Below, one piece after another: positions 36,973 to 46,440 of a stretch of DNA of 64,000 bases (position 1 is its first letter; each line of letters begins with the position of its first letter). A program made the translations under genes and the position numbers. This DNA is from Actinotalea sp. JY-7876 (GTDB taxonomy: Bacteria; Actinomycetota; Actinomycetes; Actinomycetales; Cellulomonadaceae), in the NCBI RefSeq assembly GCF_014042015.1, contig NZ_CP059493.1, positions 620,001 to 684,000 of the forward strand. Direction: 5' to 3'. Below the pieces are notes generated by a model. It was not told the origin of the DNA, searched no databases, and saw only the letters and a program-made list of their open reading frames with translations.

Positions 36973-37599
36973 GTGCGTCGAGACACCGCGACCCTCCGCG
37001 GGGGTGGGGCCGCGCGGCCGCACCTCATCGCCCCCGAGACGTCCGTCGCCACCCGCGCGGTGCGGGCGCACGAGCCGGACGACGTCGCCCGGGCCTCGGC
37101 GGCGGGCCTGCGCCGCGTGCTCCTGCTGAACGCGAGCCGGGAGCCGCTCTGCGTCGTGAGCGCGCACCGTGCGGTGACCCTCGTGCTCAGCGGCAAGGCG
37201 GTCGTGCTGGAGGAGGACACCGCGGTGCTCCGGTCCGAGAAGCTGACGCTGCCCGCGCCGCACGTGCTCTGCCTGACCCGGTACGTGCACGTGCCCTACC
37301 GGCCGACGGTCCCGCCGACGCGGCGCACCGTCCTGCAGCGCGACGACCACCGCTGCGCGTACTGCGCTGCCCCCGCCGACACCGTCGACCACGTGCACCC
37401 GCGCTCGCGCGGCGGCCGTCACGAGTGGACCAACGTGGTGGCGGCGTGCGCGCGGTGCAACCACCGCAAGGCCGACCGGCTGCTCGCGGAGATCGGCTGG
37501 CAGCTGCTCGTGACGCCGTCCGTGCCGCGCGTCGGCTGCGCGGTGCTCGCCGCGGCGGCCCGCCCCCACCCGTCGTGGAGCGCGTACCTGGCGGCGTGA
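36973..37599 (+). CDS. HNH endonuclease domain protein
   Basis: A 208-residue protein with a C-terminal HNH nuclease fold: CAYC near residue 132, HVHPRSRGGRHEWTNVVAAC (the catalytic His and the Asn), and CNHRKADRLL. The first half (VLLLNASREPLCVVSAHRAVTLVLSGKAVVLEE) is the conserved N-terminal part of the stand-alone actinobacterial HNH family, whose role is unknown; it is not a homing or restriction enzyme by context. The Cys pairs bind structural zinc. The start is GTG 36973 after GGGAGACTGCC. It is a lone gene between the NlpC/P60 gene and the composite repeat element A. Confidence 0.9.
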   Translation: MRRDTATLRGGGAARPHLIAPETSVATRAVRAHEPDDVARASAAGLRRVLLLNASREPLCVVSAHRAVTLVLSGKAVVLEEDTAVLRSEKLTLPAPHVLCLTRYVHVPYRPTVPPTRRTVLQRDDHRCAYCAAPADTVDHVHPRSRGGRHEWTNVVAACARCNHRKADRLLAEIGWQLLVTPSVPRVGCAVLAAAARPHPSWSAYLAA

Positions 37600-37682
37600 C
37601 CCGCGACGGTCGCTCCGCCGGGGTGCGCCGGTCCGACGGCCACGCCCGGCTCCCGTCAGGACCACCCCGCCCAGGCTCCCGT

Positions 37683-37748
37683 GAGCACGTCCGTTCGGGG
37701 CGAGTACGTCCGCCACGAGGGACGTGCTCGGTGGGAACAGACGTGCTC
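37683..37748. repeat. Composite element A, inverted-repeat part
   Basis: Outer arms GAGCACGTCCGTTC (37683-37696) and GAACAGACGTGCTC (37735-37748) match as an inverted repeat with one mismatch; inner arms GAGTACGTCC (37702-37711) and GGACGTGCTC (37720-37729) are nested inside. The core word GCACGTCC thus occurs four times. Element B at 40734 has almost the same arms. Confidence 0.85.
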
Positions 37749-37750
37749 GG

Positions 37751-37789
37751 CGCGGGCGGGGACCGCGGGCGGGGAGCGCGGGCGGGGAG
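37751..37789. repeat. Composite element A, 13-bp G-rich tandem array
   Basis: Three consecutive units CGCGGGCGGGGA(C/G) at 37751-37763, 37764-37776 and 37777-37789, then degenerate ones. The G runs could allow quadruplex formation on the plus strand. It directly follows the inverted repeat. Confidence 0.82.
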
Positions 37790-37911
37790 CGCGGGCGGCG
37801 GCGGCGAGTGGAGCGCGGGTGGGGTGTTGGCGCGGGTCGGTGGACCGGGCGGTGCGGATCGCGGGCAGACTGGACCCAAGGGCGGCGCTCACCAGGATCC
37901 AGGAGGCGGTC

Positions 37912-38859
37912 ATGAGTCACGACGAGGTGGTGCTGGTCGGGGTCGACGGCTCGCCGGCGAGCCTGCACGCGGCGGACTGGGCGGTCGCCTACGCCCGGGC
38001 CCACGGCCATGGTGTGCACCTGGTGTGCTCGTACGCGGTGCCCGCCTTCACGGCCGCGGCGCTCGACGGCGGCTACGCGGCGCTCGACGACACGGCGATC
38101 GCCGACGGCGCCCAGGCGGTCCTCGACGAGGCGACGCAGCGGCTGAGCCGCTCCGGCGTGCGCGTGACCTCCGCCGTCGCCACCGGCGATGCCGCGGCCG
38201 TGCTCGTCGAGCTCTCGCGCGGCGCGGCGGCGGTCGTCGTCGGGACGCGGGGGCGTGGCGGCTTCGCGGAGCGGCTGCTCGGCACCGTCTCGTCCGCGCT
38301 GCCGGCCCACGCGCACTGCCCGACCGTCGTCGTGCCGTGGACCAGCACCGATGACGACGGCGAGACCGCTCCGCCGACACCGGTGCGCCGGATCGTCGTC
38401 GGCGTGGACGGCTCGCCCGCGGCCGAGGTCGCGCTCGAGCAGGCGATCCGCGAGGCGGAGCGGTGGGGCGCCGAGCTCACTGCGGTCGCCGGCGTGCCGG
38501 TCGGCGCCGGGGCGGGCATCCTCGCGTGGCTGCCCGCCTCGATCGACCACGCCGCCGTCCTGCGCGACGCGGCCGAGGGACTCGACGTCGTGGTCGACCG
38601 GGCCCTGGTGCGGCACCCGGGCGTGGAGGTGCGGCGGCACGTGCTCGACGGCACGGGCGCCGCGCTCCTCACCGAGTTCTCGACGGCGGTGGACCTCGTG
38701 GTCGTGGGCTCGCGCGGGCGCGGCGGCTTCGCGGGGCTCCTGCTCGGTTCGACGAGCCAGGCCGTGCTCCACCACTCCGCGTGCCCCGTCATGGTGGTCA
38801 CGCGCCGCTGCCAGCACCCCGCGGACGACGAGCCGCTGGGCCGCCGCCCCGGCTCCTGA
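37912..38859 (+). CDS. Universal stress protein with two UspA domains
   Basis: A 315-residue cytoplasmic protein with two tandem Usp domains. Domain 1 starts VVLVGVDGSPASLHAADWAV and has VVVGTRGRGGFAERLLGTVSSAL, the ATP-binding G-2x-G-9x-G-S/T motif. Domain 2 starts RIVVGVDGSPAAEVALEQAI and ends with VVVGSRGRGGFAGLLLGSTSQAV. Such proteins bind ATP and accumulate in stress or dormancy in actinobacteria. ATG 37912 follows AGGAGG (37901-37906), a very good ribosome binding site. The frame is open upstream, but that part overlaps the repeats and is not coding. It is convergent with the Lrp-family gene. Confidence 0.95.
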   Translation: MSHDEVVLVGVDGSPASLHAADWAVAYARAHGHGVHLVCSYAVPAFTAAALDGGYAALDDTAIADGAQAVLDEATQRLSRSGVRVTSAVATGDAAAVLVELSRGAAAVVVGTRGRGGFAERLLGTVSSALPAHAHCPTVVVPWTSTDDDGETAPPTPVRRIVVGVDGSPAAEVALEQAIREAERWGAELTAVAGVPVGAGAGILAWLPASIDHAAVLRDAAEGLDVVVDRALVRHPGVEVRRHVLDGTGAALLTEFSTAVDLVVVGSRGRGGFAGLLLGSTSQAVLHHSACPVMVVTRRCQHPADDEPLGRRPGS

Positions 38860-38904
38860 CCCGGCTGCGGGCTCGGCGGCGGACCGCGACCCACGGCGGG
38901 CAGG

Positions 38905-39396
38905 TCACGGCAGCGGTGGTGGGAGGTCCGGGCGCCGGACCAGCGGCGTGAGGACGACGGTCGAGCGCGTCCGGTCGACGAACGGCTCGGCGGCGATGCG
39001 TTCGACCACCTCGTCGAGGTGCCTCACGTCGCGCGCGCGCACGTGCACGACGGCGTCCGCCTCGCCCGTCACGGTGCTCGCCGCGACGACCTCCGGGTAG
39101 CGCTCGAACGCCGCCCGCATGGTCGCGGGGCTCGTGCGCGGCGCGCAGTGCACCTCGACGTGCGCCTCGGTGGCCCAGCCCAGCGCCGCGGGGTCGATGC
39201 GGACGGTGAACCCGTCGATGACGCCGCGCTCGCGCAGCCGGTCGACCCGCCGCTTCACCGCGGGCGCCGAGAGGTTCACGCGCGCGCCGACGGCGGCATA
39301 GCTCGCGCGGGCGTCGCGGGCCAGGTGCGCGAGGATCGCGGTGTCGATCCGGTCCACGCCGGCGTAGGTCCCCTCGGGTGGGACCGGGTTCTGCAT
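38905..39396 (-). CDS. Lrp/AsnC-family transcriptional regulator
   Basis: A 163-residue feast/famine regulator. The helix-turn-helix domain is RIDTAILAHLARDARASYAAVGARVNLSAPAVKRRVDRLRERGVI and the C-terminal RAM ligand domain follows, with VEVHCAPRTSPATMRAAFERYPEVVAASTVTGEADAVVHVRARD. Members sense amino acids. A dimethylargininase-like gene lies 0.3 kb upstream on the same strand with a tiny gene between; Lrp-type regulators are common next to arginine-degradation genes, so that gene is a possible target. The start is ATG 39396. Confidence 0.93.
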   Translation of the reverse strand: MQNPVPPEGTYAGVDRIDTAILAHLARDARASYAAVGARVNLSAPAVKRRVDRLRERGVIDGFTVRIDPAALGWATEAHVEVHCAPRTSPATMRAAFERYPEVVAASTVTGEADAVVHVRARDVRHLDEVVERIAAEPFVDRTRSTVVLTPLVRRPDLPPPLP

Positions 39397-39502
39397 GCGC
39401 CCAGCATGCCGGACGCGACCCGATCGCGATCACGGCCGCGCGGACGTTCACTGGACGTGGGCGGGATCACCCGTCCGTCGCCGCCACGCAAGGGGGTTCG
39501 GC

Positions 39503-39643
39503 ATGGGTATGGACGACATCACCGAGAAGGCCAGCGACGCCGGCATCGAGAAGGCCGGGGACGCCGCCGAGAAGAAGGCGGGTGGCCACGGCGACAAGGT
39601 CGACAAGGCCGAGCAGGCCGCCGACAAGAAGGCCGGCGGCTGA
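39503..39643 (+). CDS. MT0933-like small antitoxin-type protein
   Basis: A 46-residue hydrophilic, fully helical protein: MGMDDITEKASDAGIEKAGD, then repeats of the type KAGDAAEKKAGG, GDKVDKAEQAADKKAGG. This pattern matches the MT0933 antitoxin family, small Lys/Ala-rich proteins whose mycobacterial member is encoded with an SRPBCC-fold toxin. No toxin gene is adjacent; an SRPBCC protein is encoded about 2 kb away. AAGGGGG lies before ATG 39503. A second ATG follows two codons later. The family call is by composition and repeat pattern; a true antitoxin role is doubtful. Confidence 0.7.
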   Translation: MGMDDITEKASDAGIEKAGDAAEKKAGGHGDKVDKAEQAADKKAGG

Positions 39644-39653
39644 CGAACGACGA

Positions 39654-39686
39654 CGACGCCCGGTGCGCGCGACGCACCGGGCGTCG
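39654..39686. terminator. Bidirectional terminator hairpin
   Basis: A perfect 14-bp stem (39654-39667 with 39673-39686) with a five-base loop, lying between the small antitoxin-like gene and the convergent dimethylargininase gene. Confidence 0.85.
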
Positions 39687-39698
39687 CGGTGCGTCACC

Positions 39699-40523
39699 TC
39701 ACGAGCGGATCTCGAGTGTGCAGCACTTGGCGCCGCCGCCGCCCTTGAGCAGCTCCGTGGTGTCGACGGGGTGCGGCTCGAAGCCGCGCGCGCGCAGCTC
39801 GGCGGCGAGGTCGACGGCGGCCGGCGCGACCACGACGTGCAGGCCGTCGGAGACGGCATTGAGCCCGAGGGCGATGGCGTCGGCCTCCGTCGCCATGACG
39901 GCGTCGGGGTAGCGGGCCGCCAGGACCGCCTGGGACGTGGCGGAGAACGCCGGGGGGTAGTAGGCGATGAGCTCGTGGCCGGGGCGGCTGTCGAGCACAG
40001 CGATCGCGGTGTCGAGGTGGTAGAAGCGCGGGTCCACGAGCTCGAGGGTGACGACCTCGTGGCCCGACAGCGCGGCGAGCTCGGCGTGCGCCGCGGGGTC
40101 GGTGCGGAACCCGGAGCCTGCGAGGAAGGTGTCGCCGACGAGCAGGATGTCGCCCTCGCCCTCGTTGATCTGGGCGGCGGTCTGCGTGATGAACCCGTGG
40201 TCGGCGAACCACTTCTCGTACAGGGGGCCCTCGGCGGCGCGCTCGGGGTAGCGGAAGCGGGCCGAGTAGACGAGTCCGTCGACGACCGTCGCCCCGTTCG
40301 CGGCGTAGACCATGTCCGGCAGGCCGGGAGCGGGGTCGATGAGCTCGACCGTGTGGCCCCACGCGAGGTAGGCGTCGCGCAGTGTCTCCCACTGGGCGAT
40401 CGCGCGCTCGCGGTCGGTGGCGCGGGTGACGTCCATCCAGGGGTTGATCTCGTACGTCACCTCGAAGAAGTCGGGGCGGCACATGAGGTAGCGGCGGGCG
40501 GTGGGGGTGCGCGGCTGGGTCAC
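39699..40523 (-). CDS. Dimethylargininase-like amidinohydrolase
   Basis: A 274-residue enzyme of the amidinotransferase superfamily, close to dimethylarginine dimethylaminohydrolase, which forms citrulline. Typical parts are RRYLMCRPDFFEVTYEINPW, LPDMVYAANGATVVDGLVY, the substrate/His region VDPRFYHLDTAIAVLDSRPG, and the C-terminal catalytic Cys in KGGGGAKCCTLEIRS (residue 267 or 268). The start is GTG 40523 after AGGAGCCGCA. Dimethylarginine is not certain as substrate; arginine or other guanidino compounds are alternatives. An Lrp/AsnC gene lies downstream on the same strand. Confidence 0.88.
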   Translation of the reverse strand: MTQPRTPTARRYLMCRPDFFEVTYEINPWMDVTRATDRERAIAQWETLRDAYLAWGHTVELIDPAPGLPDMVYAANGATVVDGLVYSARFRYPERAAEGPLYEKWFADHGFITQTAAQINEGEGDILLVGDTFLAGSGFRTDPAAHAELAALSGHEVVTLELVDPRFYHLDTAIAVLDSRPGHELIAYYPPAFSATSQAVLAARYPDAVMATEADAIALGLNAVSDGLHVVVAPAAVDLAAELRARGFEPHPVDTTELLKGGGGAKCCTLEIRS

Positions 40524-40733
40524 TGCGGCTCCTGGCGGGTCGGCGGTCCGGTGGGGGATCACGGCCCGGCGACGGTGCCGGCCTCCCGACGAGATTAGGA
40601 CCGCCGACCTCCGACCGACGGGTCGCAACGCTGTGCTGCGAGGCCCCACCCGTTGCGCGCCGCGCCCCTCCGACAGCGATTCGTTGCGCCGGGGCGGGGC
40701 CCGCCCCGGCCCGCGTACCAGCACCACCGCCGG

Positions 40734-40797
40734 GCACGTCCGTTCCACGCGAGCACGTCCTGCGTCACGGACGTCTTCGGCTGGAACGGACGTGCTC
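40734..40797. repeat. Composite element B, inverted-repeat part
   Basis: Outer arms GCACGTCCGTTCCA (40734-40747) and TGGAACGGACGTGC (40782-40795) are a perfect 14-bp inverted repeat. Nested inside are GAGCACGTCC (40751-40760) and GGACGTCTTC (40769-40778). The arms are nearly identical to those of element A, so both are copies of one repeat type. Confidence 0.88.
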
Positions 40798-40800
40798 GCG

Positions 40801-40834
40801 GCCGGGGCGGGTTGGCGGGCGGGGTGGGTTGGCG
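40801..40834. repeat. Composite element B, 17-bp G-rich tandem array
   Basis: Unit 1 GCCGGGGCGGGTTGGCG (40801-40817), unit 2 GGCGGGGTGGGTTGGCG (40818-40834), and a partial third that runs into the stop codon of the alpha/beta hydrolase gene. The core GGCGGGGTGGG is identical to that of element C on its opposite strand. Confidence 0.82.
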
Positions 40835-40841
40835 GCCGGGG

Positions 40842-41648
40842 TCAGGCTCGCGCGGTCGTCAGGACGTCGCGGAGCGCGGCGGCGAACTCCTGCGGGTGGG
40901 ACGCGAAGCCGTGGTGAGCGCCGGGGAAGGCGGTCAGTCGGGTGCCGAGGCGCTCCGCCAGGGCGGTCGACGTGCGGTGCGTCAGCAGGTCCCCGGAGTC
41001 CGCGCCCACGCCGACGACGACGCGCGTCGCGCCGGCGGTGAGCGCGGCGATGTCGGGCACGTACGACGACGTCGGGTGGAGGTCCTGGGCGAAGAACCGT
41101 GCGCCGTCCGCCATGTCCTGCGCCGACGGCGGCTCCCGAGGCTCCTCCTCGTCCTCGTCCCAGCCCGCGTTGCCCAGGAACGCCATGATGGCCGCCTCGA
41201 ACCCCTCGCGGTGGAACGTCGCGACCAGGGCGTCCACCGCGGCGAGCTGCTCGGCCGAGTCCTGCAGGAGGGTCAGCACCGGCGGCTCGTGCGCGACGAG
41301 CGTCCGCACGCGGTCCGGGTAGCGGGTCGCGAGGTCGAGCCCCGTGACGGCGCCACCGCTGCTCCCCATGACGTCGGCATCGTCCGCGCCCAGCGTGTCG
41401 AGCAGCGCGGCGAGGTCGTCCGCGCGCAGCTGCGGGGTCGAGGGGCCGTCCGGGTCGTCCAGGCGGCTGCGGTTGATGCCGCGCGGGTCGTGCGTGACGA
41501 CCGTGTGCTCGCGGGCGAGCTCGTCGGCGAGCCCCGCGAAGACCCGCGCGTCGACCGGCGAGCCGGTGAGGATCATGAGCGGCCCGTTGCCGCGCACCTC
41601 GTAGTGGATGGTGCCGCCCGGGATGGGCAGCTGGTGAGTGGTGAGCAT
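40842..41648 (-). CDS. Alpha/beta hydrolase
   Basis: A 268-residue alpha/beta-fold hydrolase. The strand before the nucleophile elbow ends VMGSSGGAVTGLDLATRYP, giving the G-x-S-x-G nucleophile Ser in GSSGG; the acid is near GVGADSGD and the His in AFPGAHHGFASHP close to the C-terminus. The oxyanion region is near LTGSPVDARVF. The substrate is unknown. The start is ATG 41648. It lies beside the SRPBCC and MmcQ/YjbR genes on the same strand, but the 108-base gap makes cotranscription uncertain. Its 3' end borders the tandem part of element B. Confidence 0.88.
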   Translation of the reverse strand: MLTTHQLPIPGGTIHYEVRGNGPLMILTGSPVDARVFAGLADELAREHTVVTHDPRGINRSRLDDPDGPSTPQLRADDLAALLDTLGADDADVMGSSGGAVTGLDLATRYPDRVRTLVAHEPPVLTLLQDSAEQLAAVDALVATFHREGFEAAIMAFLGNAGWDEDEEEPREPPSAQDMADGARFFAQDLHPTSSYVPDIAALTAGATRVVVGVGADSGDLLTHRTSTALAERLGTRLTAFPGAHHGFASHPQEFAAALRDVLTTARA

Positions 41649-41756
41649 CGGGGTTCCCTCCGTCCGCGTCGGCGGAGCGCCGACTCAGGAGGGACTACGC
41701 CCGGCGCCGTGACTCATCGCGCCCGGCCGGACCCGCGGGGCCGGCCCCCGGGGGGA

Positions 41757-42245
41757 TCAGGGGACGCGGCTCACCTCGGCCGCCACGCGGCGCAGGACCA
41801 GGTGGAGCATGCCGGACATGGCCACGGCGGTCAGCGCGGCGCCGACCGGGCGGGGCAGGCCGCGCAGCCAGGTGCGCTCGACCCACGTCACCTCGCTGTG
41901 CCGCGACCCCAGCGGCCGGACGCGCACCTCGGCGTCGCCCATCAGCACGGGGCCGCGCTTGCGGAACGTCGCGACACCCTCGCGCGCCGCGTCCCGTCCG
42001 TGCGCCGGCGCCGGCGGGTCGTAGCGCTCGACGACCATGACGTCGGGCACCCCGCGCCCGCCCGACGCCGCCGTCGGGCCGGTGACGCCCGTGAACTCGT
42101 CACCCGCCCGCACCGGCCGGTCCGGCCCGTCGATCCGCGTCAGCGGCACCCACCGCGCGTGGTGGCGCACGTCCGTGACCAGGTCCCACACGACGCCGGC
42201 CGGCGCGGCGACCACGCGGCTCACCGAGACTTCGCGCACGCTCAC
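41757..42245 (-). CDS. SRPBCC-family protein (polyketide cyclase/START-like fold)
   Basis: A 162-residue protein with the helix-grip SRPBCC pattern: VSRVVAAPAGVVWDLVTDVRHHARWVP at the start, then VRAGDEFTGVTG, VMVVERYDPP and SEVTWVERTWLRG, ending with a hydrophobic helix (ALTAVAMSGMLHLVLRRV). Such proteins bind lipids or aromatic compounds; mycobacterial Rv0910-type toxins are relatives. Start is GTG 42245, overlapping the MmcQ/YjbR stop (42242-42245), so the pair is translationally coupled. An antitoxin-like protein lies 2 kb away, not next to it. Confidence 0.82.
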   Translation of the reverse strand: MSVREVSVSRVVAAPAGVVWDLVTDVRHHARWVPLTRIDGPDRPVRAGDEFTGVTGPTAASGGRGVPDVMVVERYDPPAPAHGRDAAREGVATFRKRGPVLMGDAEVRVRPLGSRHSEVTWVERTWLRGLPRPVGAALTAVAMSGMLHLVLRRVAAEVSRVP

Positions 42246-42643
42246 GTGCCCGACGACCGCTCGGCGTCGAGCCGGGCGACGAGCCGTGCGGGCGCCGCCT
42301 GCCGGTACGACGACGCGAGCAGCTCGCCGACCTCGTCCCAGTCGACGTCGCGCGCGAGGTCGAGTGCGAGCCACCCGGCGGGCCCGTGGTACGGCGGCGC
42401 CCAGAAGCGGGCGTCGTCGAGCAGCGCGGGCCGCTCGTCGTCGTCGGGCCTGAAGATCAGGGCGTGCGGCTGCTCCGGCTGCCCGGCCGCGGCGCCGACG
42501 CCGTAGGTCGCGTACATCCTCGCCACCCGGAAGGTCGGGCGGCCCCAGGACTCCTTCTCGACCGACTCGGGCAGCGCAGCGCACAGGTCGCGCAGGCGCG
42601 CGAGCAGCGGGTCGTCGTCGTCGTACATCCGCGGGTGCGCCAC
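42242..42643 (-). CDS. MmcQ/YjbR-family protein
   Basis: A 133-residue protein of the MmcQ/YjbR fold (CyaY-like), often annotated as DNA-binding. The pattern CAALPESVEKESWGRPTFRVARMYATYG leads to a segment with PHALIFRPDDDERPALLDDARFWAPPYHGPAGWLALDLARDVDWDEVGELLASSYRQAAP, which matches the family. The start is GTG 42643, five bases after GGGAG, in preference to an internal ATG at 42628. Coupled by a four-base overlap to the SRPBCC gene; divergent from the aldo/keto reductase. The function is unknown. Confidence 0.85.
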   Translation of the reverse strand: MAHPRMYDDDDPLLARLRDLCAALPESVEKESWGRPTFRVARMYATYGVGAAAGQPEQPHALIFRPDDDERPALLDDARFWAPPYHGPAGWLALDLARDVDWDEVGELLASSYRQAAPARLVARLDAERSSGT

Positions 42644-42712
42644 GTGAGCTCCCAGGTCAGCGGTCGCGCTCGAGGTGATCGCGGCCGTGGGACCACGGTA
42701 GCGTCGCGGTTC

Positions 42713-43699
42713 ATGGACAAGCGTGTGCTCGGACGGACGGGACGACAGGTCAGCGTGATCGGCCTCGGCTGCTGGCAGCTGGGGGCGGACTGGGGCGAGG
42801 TGAGCGAGGAGCAGGCGCTCGCGGTGCTCGACGCCGCGGTGGACTCCGGGGTGACCTTCCTCGACACCGCGGACGTGTACGGCGACGGCCGCTCGGAGCG
42901 GCTCGTCGGGACGCTGCTGCGCAACCGGCCCGACGCCGGTCTCACGGTCGCGACGAAGATGGGTCGCCGGGCCGCCCCGCACGTCGACGCGGCGTACACG
43001 CTCGACGCGTTCCGGGCGTGGACCGACCGCTCGCGCGAGAACCTCGGCGTCGAGACCCTGGACCTCGTCCAGCTGCACTGCCCGCCCACGGAGACGTTCT
43101 CGCGCGACTCCCTGTACGACGACCTGGACACCCTGGTCGCCGAGGGCCGCGTCGCCGCCTACGGCGTCTCGGTCGAGAAGGTCGCGGAGGCGCTCGAGGC
43201 GATCTCCCGGCCGAACGTCGCGACCGTGCAGATCATCCTCAACGTCTTCCGCCGCAAGCCGCTGGAGGAGGTGCTGCCCGCCGCGCTCGAGGCCGGCGTG
43301 GGCATCCTGGCGCGCGTGCCGCTCGCGAGCGGCCTGCTGAGCGGCAAGTACGACGCGTCGACGACGTTCGCCGCGGACGACCACCGGAGCTTCAACCGCC
43401 AGGGTGAGGCGTTCGACGTCGGCGAGACGTTCGCGGGCGTGCCGTACGACGTCGGCGTCGCCGCCGCGCAGGAGGTCGCCCGGTTCACGCCGCAGGGCGC
43501 GACGACGGCTCAGCTCGCCCTGCGCTGGATCCTCGACCAGCCGGGCGTCTCGACGGTCATCCCCGGCGCGAGCAAGCCCGAGCAGGCGCGGTCGAACGCG
43601 GCCGCCGCCGACCTGGCGCCGCTCGACGCGGAGACTCTCGCCGGGCTCGAGAAGATCTACGACGAGCGCATCCGGCAGCACGTGCACGGCCGCTGGTGA
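42713..43699 (+). CDS. Aldo/keto reductase
   Basis: A 328-residue NADPH-dependent oxidoreductase of the aldo/keto reductase superfamily. The pattern VIGLGCWQLGADWGEVSEEQ begins it; the catalytic tetrad residues include Asp in GVTFLDTADVYGDG with Tyr, and Lys in VATKMGRR. ALRWILDQPGVSTVIPGASKPEQARSN near the C-terminus is the family's cofactor region. The substrate is unknown. TAGCGT at 42699-42704 lies eight bases before ATG 42713 and there is no Shine-Dalgarno, so a leaderless message is likely. Divergent from MmcQ/YjbR and convergent with the next gene. Confidence 0.92.
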   Translation: MDKRVLGRTGRQVSVIGLGCWQLGADWGEVSEEQALAVLDAAVDSGVTFLDTADVYGDGRSERLVGTLLRNRPDAGLTVATKMGRRAAPHVDAAYTLDAFRAWTDRSRENLGVETLDLVQLHCPPTETFSRDSLYDDLDTLVAEGRVAAYGVSVEKVAEALEAISRPNVATVQIILNVFRRKPLEEVLPAALEAGVGILARVPLASGLLSGKYDASTTFAADDHRSFNRQGEAFDVGETFAGVPYDVGVAAAQEVARFTPQGATTAQLALRWILDQPGVSTVIPGASKPEQARSNAAAADLAPLDAETLAGLEKIYDERIRQHVHGRW

Positions 43700-43713
43700 C
43701 CGTCCGGCGGTGG

Positions 43714-43740
43714 ACCGCCGGGGCGCTCAGCCCCGGCGGT
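43714..43740. terminator. Terminator hairpin between convergent genes
   Basis: An 11-bp perfect stem (43714-43724 with 43730-43740) with a five-base loop, 15 bases after the aldo/keto reductase stop. It overlaps the last codons of the opposite-strand gene, which ends at 43727. Confidence 0.7.
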
Positions 43741-44710
43741 GCCACCGCCCCCGGCGCCTGGTGACGTCGCCGGGCGGCGTGTCCTGGACGTCCTCCAGCG
43801 GGACGTCGAGCGGCGTGGCGGGGACGTCGGGGCCGGCCCCGATCGCCGACCTGACCCGCTGCACGACGCGCGCCGGCGCCTTGGTCTCGTCCGGGCCGGA
43901 GACGGCGAGCTCGATCTCGCGCGGGAACCGGGCGGGCGGCGGGCCGAACGCCTTGTGCGCGCCCTCGACGACCGTGCGTCCCATGGCGCGCGCGCCCGTC
44001 GCGCCGATGACGGCGCCGATGCCGAACGGTGCCAGGCGACCGAACGCGAGGGCGCCCTGGCGCCCGGCCTGGCGCCGCACGAGACGCCTGGTCAGCGCGC
44101 TGTTGACGCGCTTGATGGTCTGCGTCGGCATGTTGATGAGCAGGGTCTTGGCCCAGGCGGTGGGGTTGATGCCCGCCTCGGAGCCGACCGTCGTCGCGCC
44201 CTGCTCGCCCAGGAGCGTCGCCATGAGCAGGGCACGCCGGCGCGCCGTCTCCTCGACGCCGATGCCGTGCACGTCCGCGACGGCGAGCGAGAACGCGGCG
44301 GACGCCGCGAAGAAGGTGCCCACCTCCGTCGTCGTCAGCGCCATGCTCACGCCCGTGCCGACGACGGGCATCGCCGCGGCCGCGCCGACCGCGCCGCCCG
44401 ACGTGGAGATCGCGAGCAGGTACTGCTTCTCCAGCAGGGTGATGATCTGCGCGGGGCTCGCGTAGGGGTTGCGCCGCCGCAGCCGGTCCACGTGGGCGTG
44501 GATCGCGCCGGACGGGACGCCGACCGCCTTGTCGATGAGGTCGTCCACGAACGGGATCCCGGTGGCGCCGGCGACGGGGGCGACCGCTCCGGCGGTGGCC
44601 GGTGGCTGCCCCGGGGGCGCCACGGTGCCGGCGCCGGCTCCGGGAGTGGGGACGACCGGTCCGTCGGTGGGGGAGGTGCGCTGCCACGGCGCGTTGTGGG
44701 GCGACGACAT
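43727..44710 (-). CDS. Hypothetical protein with hydrophobic middle (EcsC-like pattern)
   Basis: A 327-residue protein that I cannot place with confidence. A Pro/Gly/Ala-rich N-terminal 50 residues is followed by FVDDLIDKAVGVPSGAIHAHVDRLRRRNPYASPAQIITLLEKQYLL, then hydrophobic Gly/Ala-rich stretches (STSGGAVGAAAAMPVVGTGVSMAL and LALAVADVHGIG-like) and a Lys/Arg-rich region, ending with an acidic and basic tail. The hydrophobic middle with Gly-rich ends resembles EcsC-like proteins of actinobacteria, but no catalytic motif is seen. The start is ATG 44710 (MSSPHNAPW). It is convergent with the aldo/keto reductase gene. Confidence 0.65.
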   Translation of the reverse strand: MSSPHNAPWQRTSPTDGPVVPTPGAGAGTVAPPGQPPATAGAVAPVAGATGIPFVDDLIDKAVGVPSGAIHAHVDRLRRRNPYASPAQIITLLEKQYLLAISTSGGAVGAAAAMPVVGTGVSMALTTTEVGTFFAASAAFSLAVADVHGIGVEETARRRALLMATLLGEQGATTVGSEAGINPTAWAKTLLINMPTQTIKRVNSALTRRLVRRQAGRQGALAFGRLAPFGIGAVIGATGARAMGRTVVEGAHKAFGPPPARFPREIELAVSGPDETKAPARVVQRVRSAIGAGPDVPATPLDVPLEDVQDTPPGDVTRRRGRWHRRG

Positions 44711-44834
44711 GGCCCGATGGTCCCACGCGAGGCCCACCTCGTCGCGGCGTCGGGCCTCCGTCGCGTGACGACCGGCACGTCCGAGGTCCGGCGTCCGGGC
44801 GGGCCGGGCCCCTCGCTGCGCGGGGTGGTGCTAG

Positions 44835-44856
44835 CCGTACCCGTGCCGGGGTACGG
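44835..44856. repeat. Short hairpin in the leader of the serine hydrolase gene
   Basis: CCGTACCC (44835-44842) and GGGTACGG (44849-44856) form an 8-bp stem with a six-base loop about 80 bases before the start at 44938. It could be an operator or a leader hairpin. A GGCTGGATC word occurs twice nearby. Confidence 0.4.
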
Positions 44857-44937
44857 GCTGGATCGATCACCGCGGCGTGCCAGGCAAGGCTGGATCACGT
44901 CACCACGACCCGGTCCCAGCCTTCCGAGGAGCACCCC

Positions 44938-46146
44938 ATGTCCCAGCACCAGAGCCCCACCGGTCCGAGCCCGGCACGTAGCCGCCGCACCGCGGGCGCC
45001 GTCGCCGCCGTCCTGCTCACCGGCCTCGTCGGCGGCGGGGCGGCGTGGGCGGCGCTGCGCGACGACGCGCCGTTCGCCGCGCCCGTCGACACGGCCGCCG
45101 CGACCGAGGGCGACCCCCGCGTGCAGGGCGTCGTCGACAGCCTCGTCGAGGAGCTCGAGTTCCCGGGCGCCCTGGCGCACGTGGTCGACGAGGACGGGGT
45201 GGCCCGCGACTACACCGCCGGCGTCGGGAACCTCGAGACCGGTGCGGAGGTGCCGGTCGACGGCGAGGTCCGCATCGCCAGCAACACCAAGACGTTCACG
45301 GCAGCGGTCGTGCTGCAGCTCGTGGGCGAGGGGTCGGTCGACCTCGACGCCCCGATCGAGACCTACCTGCCGGGCCTGGTCCGCGGCGAGGGCATCGACG
45401 GCAACGCGATCACGGTGCGCCAGCTGCTGCAGCACACGAGCGGACTGCCCAACTACACCGCCGTCACGAGCGGCGACTCCTTCGCGACGCGGGACCGCTA
45501 CGTCCCGGCCCGCGACCTCACCGACATCGCCTTCGCGGAGGCCCCGCTCTTCGCCCCGGGCGAGGGGTGGTCGTACAGCAACACCAACTACACCCTGCTC
45601 GGGATGCTCATCGAGCGCGTCACCGGGCGGCCGTACGCGGAGCAGGTGACCGAGCGGATCATCGAGCCGCTCGGCCTGGAGCACACCTACGTGCCCGACG
45701 TCGGCGAGCGGGAGATCCGCGGCGCGCACCCCCGCGGGTACCACCCCACCGAGAGCGGGGAGCTCGAGGACCTCACCGAGATGGACCCGTCCATCGCCGG
45801 CGCGGCGGGCATGATCGTCTCCACGCCCAGCGAGCTCGCGGCGTTCTTCACCGCCCTGGTCGGCGGCGAGCTCCTGGAGCCCGCGCAGCTCGAGGCGATG
45901 CAGCAGATGGTCGAGATGCCCGAGGAGTACCCGGGCGACGGCTACGGCCTCGGCCTCATGCGGACCACGCTGAGCTGCGGCGTCGTCCTGTGGGGGCACG
46001 GCGGCGACATCGAGGGCTACGCGACGCGCGGCGGCGTGACGGAGGACGGCGTGGGCGTGACCTACGCGGTGACGTCACTCGGGTCCTCGCTCGAGACGAT
46101 CTACGCGATGGAGGACAAGGTCGACGAGATCGTCTGCGGCGCCTGA
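44938..46146 (+). CDS. Secreted serine hydrolase (beta-lactamase/D-Ala-D-Ala carboxypeptidase fold)
   Basis: A 402-residue class C beta-lactamase-fold hydrolase. A signal or membrane anchor near residues 16-42 (RRTAGAVAAVLLTGLVGGGAAWA) precedes the catalytic domain: SxxK as ASNTK (Ser nucleophile and Lys), the Y-x-N motif YSNTNYTLLG, and HGGDIEGYA near the end (the KTG-equivalent HGG). The length and motifs fit D,D-carboxypeptidases or esterases, rather than true beta-lactamases. It acts outside the membrane. The start ATG 44938 follows GAGGAGCACCCC. Composite element C begins 44 bases after its stop. Confidence 0.9.
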   Translation: MSQHQSPTGPSPARSRRTAGAVAAVLLTGLVGGGAAWAALRDDAPFAAPVDTAAATEGDPRVQGVVDSLVEELEFPGALAHVVDEDGVARDYTAGVGNLETGAEVPVDGEVRIASNTKTFTAAVVLQLVGEGSVDLDAPIETYLPGLVRGEGIDGNAITVRQLLQHTSGLPNYTAVTSGDSFATRDRYVPARDLTDIAFAEAPLFAPGEGWSYSNTNYTLLGMLIERVTGRPYAEQVTERIIEPLGLEHTYVPDVGEREIRGAHPRGYHPTESGELEDLTEMDPSIAGAAGMIVSTPSELAAFFTALVGGELLEPAQLEAMQQMVEMPEEYPGDGYGLGLMRTTLSCGVVLWGHGGDIEGYATRGGVTEDGVGVTYAVTSLGSSLETIYAMEDKVDEIVCGA

Positions 46147-46190
46147 CCCGCCCCGCGGCCGCCCGCCGCCCCGCCGCCGCCCCGCCACCC

Positions 46191-46292
46191 CACCCCGCCA
46201 GCCGGCCCACCCCGCCAGCCGGCTCACCCCGCCAGCCGGCCCACCCCGCCAGCCAGCCCACCCCGCCAGCCAGCCGGCCCACCCCGCCAGCC
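46191..46292. repeat. Composite element C, 17-bp tandem array
   Basis: Five units of about 17 bp with the pattern CACCCCGCCAGCC(G/A)G(C/T)C start at 46191, 46208, 46225, 46242 and 46259 (the last is 21 bp), with a partial sixth at 46280. Read on the minus strand the core is GGCGGGGTGGG, identical to element B. It begins 44 bases after the serine hydrolase stop. Confidence 0.88.
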
Positions 46293-46329
46293 GTACGGAT
46301 GTTCGCACCCGCGCATCCGTACGGCTGGC
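46286..46329. repeat. Composite element C, hairpin part
   Basis: Perfect 16-bp arms: 46286-46301 (containing CCGTACGGATG) and 46314-46329 (CATCCGTACGG), with a 12-base loop. GTTCGCA at its inner edge (46301-46307) recurs inverted as TGCGAAC at 46367-46373. It lies between the serine hydrolase stop and the monooxygenase start and could work as a terminator for the former. Confidence 0.9.
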
Positions 46330-46440
46330 CCCGTTGTGTACGTGGCCACCTGTGCGGTTGTTCGGATGCGAACACGTGGGAGGAGGGCTGCGGGGGAGAG
46401 CGGCCGGGAAGAGGCGGCGTCGGTGGGGCGTTGGCCCGGC

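Follow-up and report, generated by a model that had tools for sequence, protein, structure and literature searches.

The closest described counterparts of the repeat reported here are the REP/RAYT systems. In the literature, REPs are short palindromes with many intergenic copies and an enrichment at gene 3' ends (PMC3733652), each RAYT gene is flanked by two copies of one repeat type, repeat and gene seem to vary together, and the gene is largely chromosomal (PMC2817692; PMC3733652). The same features are found in the system studied here. However, its partner protein is an AbiEi-like/Vsr-like nuclease, unrelated to RAYT (IS200/IS605-like, HUH Y1), its palindrome has 70 nt with four modules instead of the 20-40 bp of REPs, and its edges and consensus carry no GTAG tag. 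Because Y1_Tnp (PF01797) gave no match in this genome at E 0.001, a RAYT was rejected here; the same model matched in 5/14 control genomes.

The CGTC-tagged REPs (Di Nocera et al. 2013) also carry a CGTC motif, are palindromic and are often paired. According to PMC3733652, they have an 8-9 bp stem with an unpaired terminal CGTC and come without a dedicated transposase; the main text of that paper does not contain the word 'Actinobacteria'. In contrast, CGTC is paired inside a stem of about 30 bp in the type 1 palindrome described below, while other types lack it. On the protein side, EDxHD (Vsr-like) homing endonucleases, e.g. I-Bth0305I, may be similar in their Vsr-type nuclease and are alike in a long target and a weak, non-significant profile match, but the gene studied here shows no intron or intein, encodes an AbiEi-like N-terminus and is framed by palindromes. 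The AbiE type IV toxin-antitoxin system shares the N-terminal AbiEi similarity, whereas the present protein carries a nuclease domain. A search of the open-licence PMC literature returned no description of such a palindrome-nuclease partnership.

Two copies of a four-module palindrome

The window, i.e. the whole 64,000-nt stretch of Actinotalea sp. JY-7876 DNA analysed, contains the following features.

36973..37599, plus strand: HNH endonuclease gene, left neighbour of A
37641..37680, unstranded: C-rich left flank of A, GC skew -0.44
37681..37750, unstranded: element A, 70-nt palindrome of type 1 (inverted repeat, folding, covariance model)
37750..37824, unstranded: G-rich tandem array right of A, 13-bp period, 5.9 copies
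37840..38859, plus strand: gene right of A with a script-called start, its product presumably universal-stress-protein-like from our reading of its sequence
40730..40799, unstranded: element B, 70-nt palindrome of type 1 (inverted repeat, folding, covariance model)
40798..40842, unstranded: G-rich tandem array right of B, 17-bp period, 2.6 copies
40842..41648, minus strand: gene with its 3' end 42 bp from B, its product taken by us to be alpha/beta-hydrolase-like
46189..46293, unstranded: tandem array of region C, outside the element family, 17-bp period, 5.9 copies
46286..46329, unstranded: hairpin of region C, outside the element family, 16-bp perfect arms, single-copy in the genome

The uspA-like gene right of A has an alternative ATG at 37912 with a ribosome-binding-like site.

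The preliminary description had proposed that A and B share one inverted-repeat element, and this was confirmed by their arms (37683-37711/37720-37748 in A, within 40730-40799 in B), by folding (z-scores of -4.6 and -5.9) and by the covariance model. The unit of about 70 bp is built from a module of 11-12 bp present four times (CGAGCACGTCCG in A, two copies per arm). Each arm holds two direct module copies 19 bp apart, and the arms are inverted around an 8-nt loop. When the whole window was scanned with a cross-genus model, only A and B scored above 21 bits.

A G-rich array on the same side, as first described, is present at both A and B, but the pattern turned out to be symmetric. Among the 25 type 1 copies of the genome, 22 have a C-rich stretch of 40 nt on the left of the palindrome and 23 a G-rich one of 40 nt on its right; both flanks occur together in 20/25 copies vs 13/47 element-free gaps. 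The order of palindrome and G-rich flank is usually kept. Since the core is palindromic and the flanks are symmetric, the layout 'hairpin then G-rich array' holds on either strand.

Region C, initially counted as a third copy, was rejected as a family member. Its hairpin is strong by itself (folding z -8.9), but the arm GCCGTACGGATG, searched without mismatch, occurs genome-wide only at C, and no element model matched C in the window scan. What B and C have in common is the G-rich core GGCGGGGTGGG, with one copy at B and five at C (6 in the window vs 0.32 expected by shuffling).

Distribution in the genome and in relatives

As the covariance model indicated (built from 23 copies, 150 candidates scored), type 1 occupies 25 places in the genome, each matching on both strands, and no weaker match appeared in the genome up to E 0.1. 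Copying confined to 9 kb, as the preliminary description had it, was not supported, and A and B together with 23 further copies make up the defined, composite intergenic repeat that it had suspected. All 25 copies lie outside genes, apart from 4 nt of one copy that fall within a called start; the window is about 90% coding. A second palindrome, type 2, has 7 copies, one of which extends 41 nt into the end of a called gene. Although separated by up to 2.2 Mb, six of the seven hardly differ over 70 nt, and their similarity drops off at the edges; three of these six share 14-16 nt more on the right. By eye, no target-site duplication of the kind left by MITEs was visible at the six type 2 copies. 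The relatives' gaps orthologous to that of A are too diverged to define a junction.

The orientation of the occupied gaps bears on the proposal that these are bidirectional terminators or insulators, with a C-rich Rho-loading sequence before each strand's hairpin, repeated by chance conversion and not mobile. Convergent gaps contribute 12% (2859/23525) of the intergenic bases in the stretches fetched and hold 7/25 type 1 copies, several with both stop codons 6-48 bp away; the strong folding points in the same direction, as does the C-rich sequence that lies ahead of the hairpin on either strand in 20 copies. However, 5/25 copies lie between divergent genes, and termination does not need a fixed 70-nt geometry with four modules at set spacing. 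Nor would it explain why a genome-specific module type matches on both sides of one nuclease gene, and REPs also show a 3'-end bias (PMC3733652). We regard terminators as an unlikely explanation of the family, although a secondary terminator role is possible. The REP-like mobile repeat, named earlier as an alternative, is the better-supported option.

Within the genome, the arms gave no signal of compensating changes (82.2% paired vs 82.4% in shuffles). Between genera, covariation was strong (0.468 vs 0.150 in shuffles), but the sequences had been chosen with a model that rewards structure, and a change of module type would fit this signal just as well. The cross-genus alignment comprised 18/20 fetched foreign elements, two being left out for their lengths of 71 and 72 nt. 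The search for a known RNA family gave only three sub-threshold matches, to animal microRNAs.

Elements with the same geometry and other module sequences were found in 129/221 genomes of the family, and elements also occur in 19 sampled genomes from 5 other families of the order. Element A itself is absent from the orthologous gap in all 11 relatives examined. The HNH-uspA gene pair is kept in these relatives, its gap measures 71-201 bp in 11/11 extracted loci vs 301-325 bp here, and none of these loci gave a model hit above 21 bits, compared with 51-61 for A and B.

Palindromes beside the nuclease gene

Outside the window, a type 1 palindrome flanks the nuclease gene at G000:C1:3345174-3346112 on either side, and type 2 flanks its paralogue at 3320244 (58% identity between the paralogues). 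The one-gene spacing at 3.344-3.347 Mb led us to consider integron attC sites, which were dropped in view of attC anatomy.

The encoded protein combines an AbiEi-like N-terminal region with a Vsr-like nuclease domain. PADLOC AbiEi models matched 32/32 homologues, and residues S199, E202, D233, E244, D246 and K250 are invariant in all 32. Weak Pfam family matches at E 0.01 (MTES_1575 in 8/32, DUF559 in 3/32) tentatively suggest the nuclease fold. The only solved-structure match, PDB 3r3p, a Vsr-type homing endonuclease domain, was not significant (E 0.41), and this weak profile match covers the region after the acidic residues. The dN/dS value ranged from 0.14 to 0.26 in seven pairs. No match was obtained in viral contigs or phages, and the plasmids gave one weak match, to a chromosome-sized Nonomuraea record. 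No AbiEii toxin was seen among the five neighbours of the own-genome gene scanned with Pfam.

The association of gene and palindrome was observed well beyond this genome. At the 31 best homologue loci, chosen without regard to elements, a model hit lay beside the gene in 27 and on both sides in 22; 40 further loci gave 24 and 13, respectively. Altogether, 51/71 loci had a hit on at least one side, 35/71 on both sides and 20/71 none. At 30 bits or more, 47/71 loci were positive, whereas 400 kb of control sequence, drawn from 20 genomes of which 18 have elements, gave none. Without any model, a strong palindrome was found within 400 bp of 54/69 nuclease genes vs 12/100 random genes, and on both sides of 27/69 vs 0/100. 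An order-level survey with no control set gave a model hit at 17/30 loci and, model-free, a palindrome at 24/29, with 7 on both sides. Among the 221 genomes, 113 have both elements and nuclease (cut-off E 1e-40), 16 elements only, 41 the nuclease only and 51 neither, counts that ignore relatedness. Separately, the 294 proteins encoded in the vicinity of 45 elements included two other recurrent groups, one of 348 aa at distances of 93-1164 bp and a 432/436-aa pair about 30 bp away.

On the two sides of one gene, the palindromes match each other, with a left-right identity of 0.773 vs 0.456 between loci, and 35/38 left-right pairs lie above the cross-locus 95th percentile. Nucleases that are more alike also tend to have more similar elements (Mantel r 0.208; 3/999 permutations as high). 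The palindromes of the own-genome nuclease ranked first for dispersed copies in 10/18 cases, where mostly one nuclease per genome was compared; loci L090, L093 and L095 ranked 18th, 12th and 24th of 25.

Such sites could also be operators, with the AbiEi-like protein as an autoregulator whose sites flank its own gene and whose regulon is marked by the dispersed copies. AbiEi proteins bind inverted repeats, the AbiEi similarity covers all 32 N-termini, and the module repeats resemble binding sites. Yet the nuclease residues do not vary, whole 70-nt units have been copied with sharp borders, and copies are also found downstream of the nuclease gene and in convergent gaps, which makes a regulon quite improbable.

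Proposed mode of spreading

A and B are probably non-autonomous copies of a small mobile palindrome, each type of which belongs to the nuclease gene lying between two copies. We infer that the nuclease recognises, cuts and spreads its own palindrome. Its AbiEi-like part would recognise the modules, in a double-stranded, cruciform or single-strand hairpin form; its nuclease part would cut, and repair or strand joining would put new copies into intergenic gaps. By analogy, this spreading may resemble the action proposed for RAYT transposases on REPs.

A related possibility is homing, in which the nuclease cuts the palindrome and a palindrome-gene-palindrome cassette invades by palindrome recombination, solo palindromes being remnants after gene loss, like solo LTRs. 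The two flanks are near-identical at some loci (0.99 at L238), the sole solved-structure match is the homing endonuclease domain of 3r3p at E 0.41, and an enzyme of this kind forms a dimer on a target almost 60 bp long (PMC3943268). However, homing leaves unexplained how palindromes first arrived in gaps that are empty in relatives, and full cassettes are few per genome while single copies are many. We accordingly give it little credence.

For the proposed palindrome-spreading nuclease, we lean towards a wider reading: palindromes that spread by means of a Vsr-like nuclease, with an AbiEi-like part to read the DNA, would be a REP/RAYT arrangement invented independently in Actinomycetia, where nuclease and four-module code change together and each genome has its own repeat type. 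If this is true, bacteria would have found two solutions to one problem, one using an HUH transposase and the other a restriction-like nuclease; in both, a chromosomal enzyme present in single copy would maintain and spread short palindromes. The order-wide repeats (129/221 family genomes and 19 genomes in 5 other families) would gain an enzyme, and the uncharacterised AbiEi/DUF559-like proteins a function. It would also account for many hairpins that could otherwise be annotated as terminators, and the nuclease-target pairs would form a natural series for reading a recognition code.

The palindromic repeat and its distribution

Three intergenic sites of the window had been assigned to one repeat family in the preliminary description (window coordinates):

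37681-37750: A, 70-nt palindrome, type 1
40730-40799: B, 70-nt palindrome, type 1
46189-46329: C, tandem array with hairpin

A and B proved to be real and the same thing, as shown by a gapless 70-nt alignment together with 21 other copies. Each arm contains two direct copies of the module CGAGCACGTCCG placed 19 nt apart, and the arms enclose an 8-nt loop. Conservation was sharpest in the module cores, with the core CG and CC present in 23/23 aligned copies; the spacer columns and the loop were variable. Because the inner modules were absent from the type 1 search pattern, their conservation is not a product of searching. The G-rich array reported earlier is indeed present as the right flank of the palindrome; it belongs to a symmetric rule (left C-rich, right G-rich) followed by 20 of the 25 type 1 copies vs 13 of 47 element-free gaps. 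At some copies (2198263 in this genome; loci L080, L092 and L095 in relatives) the right flank can be seen to consist of the module repeated in tandem. These units of module plus spacer, 19-20 nt each, follow the palindromes at G000:C1:2198263 (L009), L080, L092 and L095 and look like arm extension through slippage or repeated copying.

C could not be kept as a third member and was struck from the palindrome family. Its strong hairpin (46286-46329) is single-copy in this genome, no element model matched there in a whole-window scan, and a short G-rich core is all that it has in common with B. At 46286-46374, a perfect 16-bp hairpin overlaps an imperfect palindrome with 35-nt arms (46300-46334 and 46340-46374); these overlapping palindromes adjoin a 17-bp C-rich array and are single-copy.

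A covariance model built on 23 copies located exactly 25 type 1 places in this genome of 3.55 Mb. Every place was detected on both strands, and the candidates scored, 150 of 14154 from a first look, yielded nothing weaker up to E 0.1. As anticipated, the copies lie outside genes: all 25 are intergenic by script gene calls, one extending 4 nt into a called start. The gaps are convergent (7), divergent (5) or co-directional (13). By position, seven copies fall in the first 0.67 Mb, a single one is at 1.30 Mb and the other 17 are beyond 2.19 Mb, including a group of seven within 35 kb (3.344-3.378 Mb).

The HNH endonuclease and stress-protein-like genes around A are also adjacent in relatives, where the gap measures 71-201 bp vs 301-325 bp here (11 of 18 relatives extracted), and no element model exceeded 21 bits at the A-orthologous loci of these 11. 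A is an insertion in the lineage of this genome; its junction is not placeable in relatives because the gaps have diverged. The gene pair around B is kept in only one relative, G005, whose orthologous gap (L240:1450-1518, G005:C23) holds a palindrome of other module type (47.8 bits, folding z -7.2). This suggests either a favoured site or an old copy that changed type in place.

The type 1 model matched 37 of 221 family genomes. A cross-genus model, built from 19 elements of 16 genomes, matched 129 of the 221, covering 17/25 genera and 19/19 genomes of the genus; scoring covered 22 candidates in each genome, which makes the copy numbers minimum values. When the order was sampled evenly, 35 of 396 genomes gave a match to this model, including 19 from five other families. 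Among genomes the geometry is constant, usually exactly 70 nt, and the module sequence varies.

A conserved nuclease gene between type-matched palindromes

A discrete repeat is associated, on both sides and by type, with a conserved nuclease gene. Comparison of proteins near elements revealed a 312-aa protein adjoining them in three genomes. Its gene here (nuclease 1, G000:C1:3345174-3346112) has one element 94 bp before it and another 9 bp after. Homologue loci were picked as best by protein similarity alone, elements having no part in the choice. A model match stood beside the gene at 27 of the 31 best loci (both sides at 22) and at 24 of 40 less similar ones (both sides at 13). Matches of at least 30 bits occurred at 47/71 loci vs 0 in 400 kb of control sequence, which gave three weaker matches (22.8-26.2 bits). 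This genome also has two distant homologues, at 34% identity, and neither has a model match beside it. A model-free palindrome scan, which also revealed types missed by the model, found 54 of 69 nuclease genes flanked, 27 on both sides (two of the 71 loci lack a called gene), compared with 12 of 100 random genes, none on both sides.

At 38 two-sided loci, left and right palindromes were on average 0.773 identical within a locus vs 0.456 between loci, and left-right identity lay above the cross-locus 95th percentile at 35 (exceptions L111, L158 and L161). Nuclease 2, a paralogue at G000:C1:3320244 that is 58% identical to nuclease 1, is flanked by a different palindrome, type 2:

G000:C1:3317954, 3320119, 3321197, 3324862, 1087171, 1088709, 1487771: type 2 copies (n=7), cognate to nuclease 2

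One of them overlaps a called gene end by 41 nt. Six of the seven are near-identical across 70 nt and diverge at once outside, three having a common 14-16 nt tail; the end of similarity at these borders is the clearest sign that the copied unit is 70 bp. Across 54 loci, element similarity rose from 0.44 below 45% nuclease identity to 0.90 above 80% (Mantel r 0.208; 3/999 permutations as high), a correlation that common descent alone could explain in part. Comparison of dispersed copies with nuclease flanks gave a mixed outcome: their own genome ranked first in 10/18 cases and 12th, 18th and 24th of 25 in three, with one nuclease compared per genome in most, of which most may hold more.

Some local arrangements are recorded here. 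Copies cluster locally near their nuclease gene: G000:C1:3343820-3377999, around nuclease 1, holds 7/25 type 1 copies, and 4/7 type 2 copies are no more than 7 kb from nuclease 2. A SUFU-domain gene (Pfam E 9e-21; L074:5154-6179, G000:C1:3343973-3345001), which immediately precedes the nuclease 1 cassette, also sits between two elements. At L238 (genome G361), the nuclease gene is enclosed by two 70-nt palindromes with 99% identity to each other, which probably marks a recent cassette.

The nuclease protein and a proposed mechanism

Residues S199, E202, D233, E244, D246, K250 and Y251 are invariant in 32/32 aligned homologues, an arrangement that we take to resemble PD-(D/E)XK and Vsr nucleases. 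The only solved-structure match, weak at E 0.41, was 3r3p, a 'mobile intron protein' and presumably I-Bth0305I, an EDxHD homing endonuclease. This enzyme is described in PMC3943268 as forming a dimer on a target almost 60 bp long. AbiEi models of PADLOC matched all 32 homologues, and weak Pfam matches at E 0.01 were AbiEi_4 (11), MTES_1575 (8) and DUF559 (3); MTES_1575 is described in PMC3710099 as a Vsr REase. The dN/dS of 0.14-0.26 in seven nuclease pairs indicates a protein in use. No relative was found in the viral contigs or phage records searched.

Most likely, in our judgement, the nuclease recognises the modules of the palindrome and cleaves or nicks either the palindrome itself or the hairpin extruded from it; new copies would then be joined into intergenic gaps, where selection would tolerate them best. 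The terminator effect proposed earlier for the hairpins is compatible with such nuclease-driven spread.

According to PMC2817692, RAYT genes have two flanking REPs, covary with them and show a correlation with REP abundance. RAYTs are believed to act on REPs in the way proposed here for the nuclease. However, the defining feature of REP/RAYT is missing: the enzyme is unrelated, and a profile search of this genome gave no Y1 transposase match. The palindrome was also rejected as a CGTC REP, which has, according to PMC3733652, stems of 8-9 bp and an unpaired CGTC. Searches of open-licence papers turned up no description of palindromes linked to AbiEi/DUF559/Vsr-like genes. We therefore regard the palindrome-nuclease system as new, with the reservation that its arrangement has a known parallel, whereas its machinery does not.
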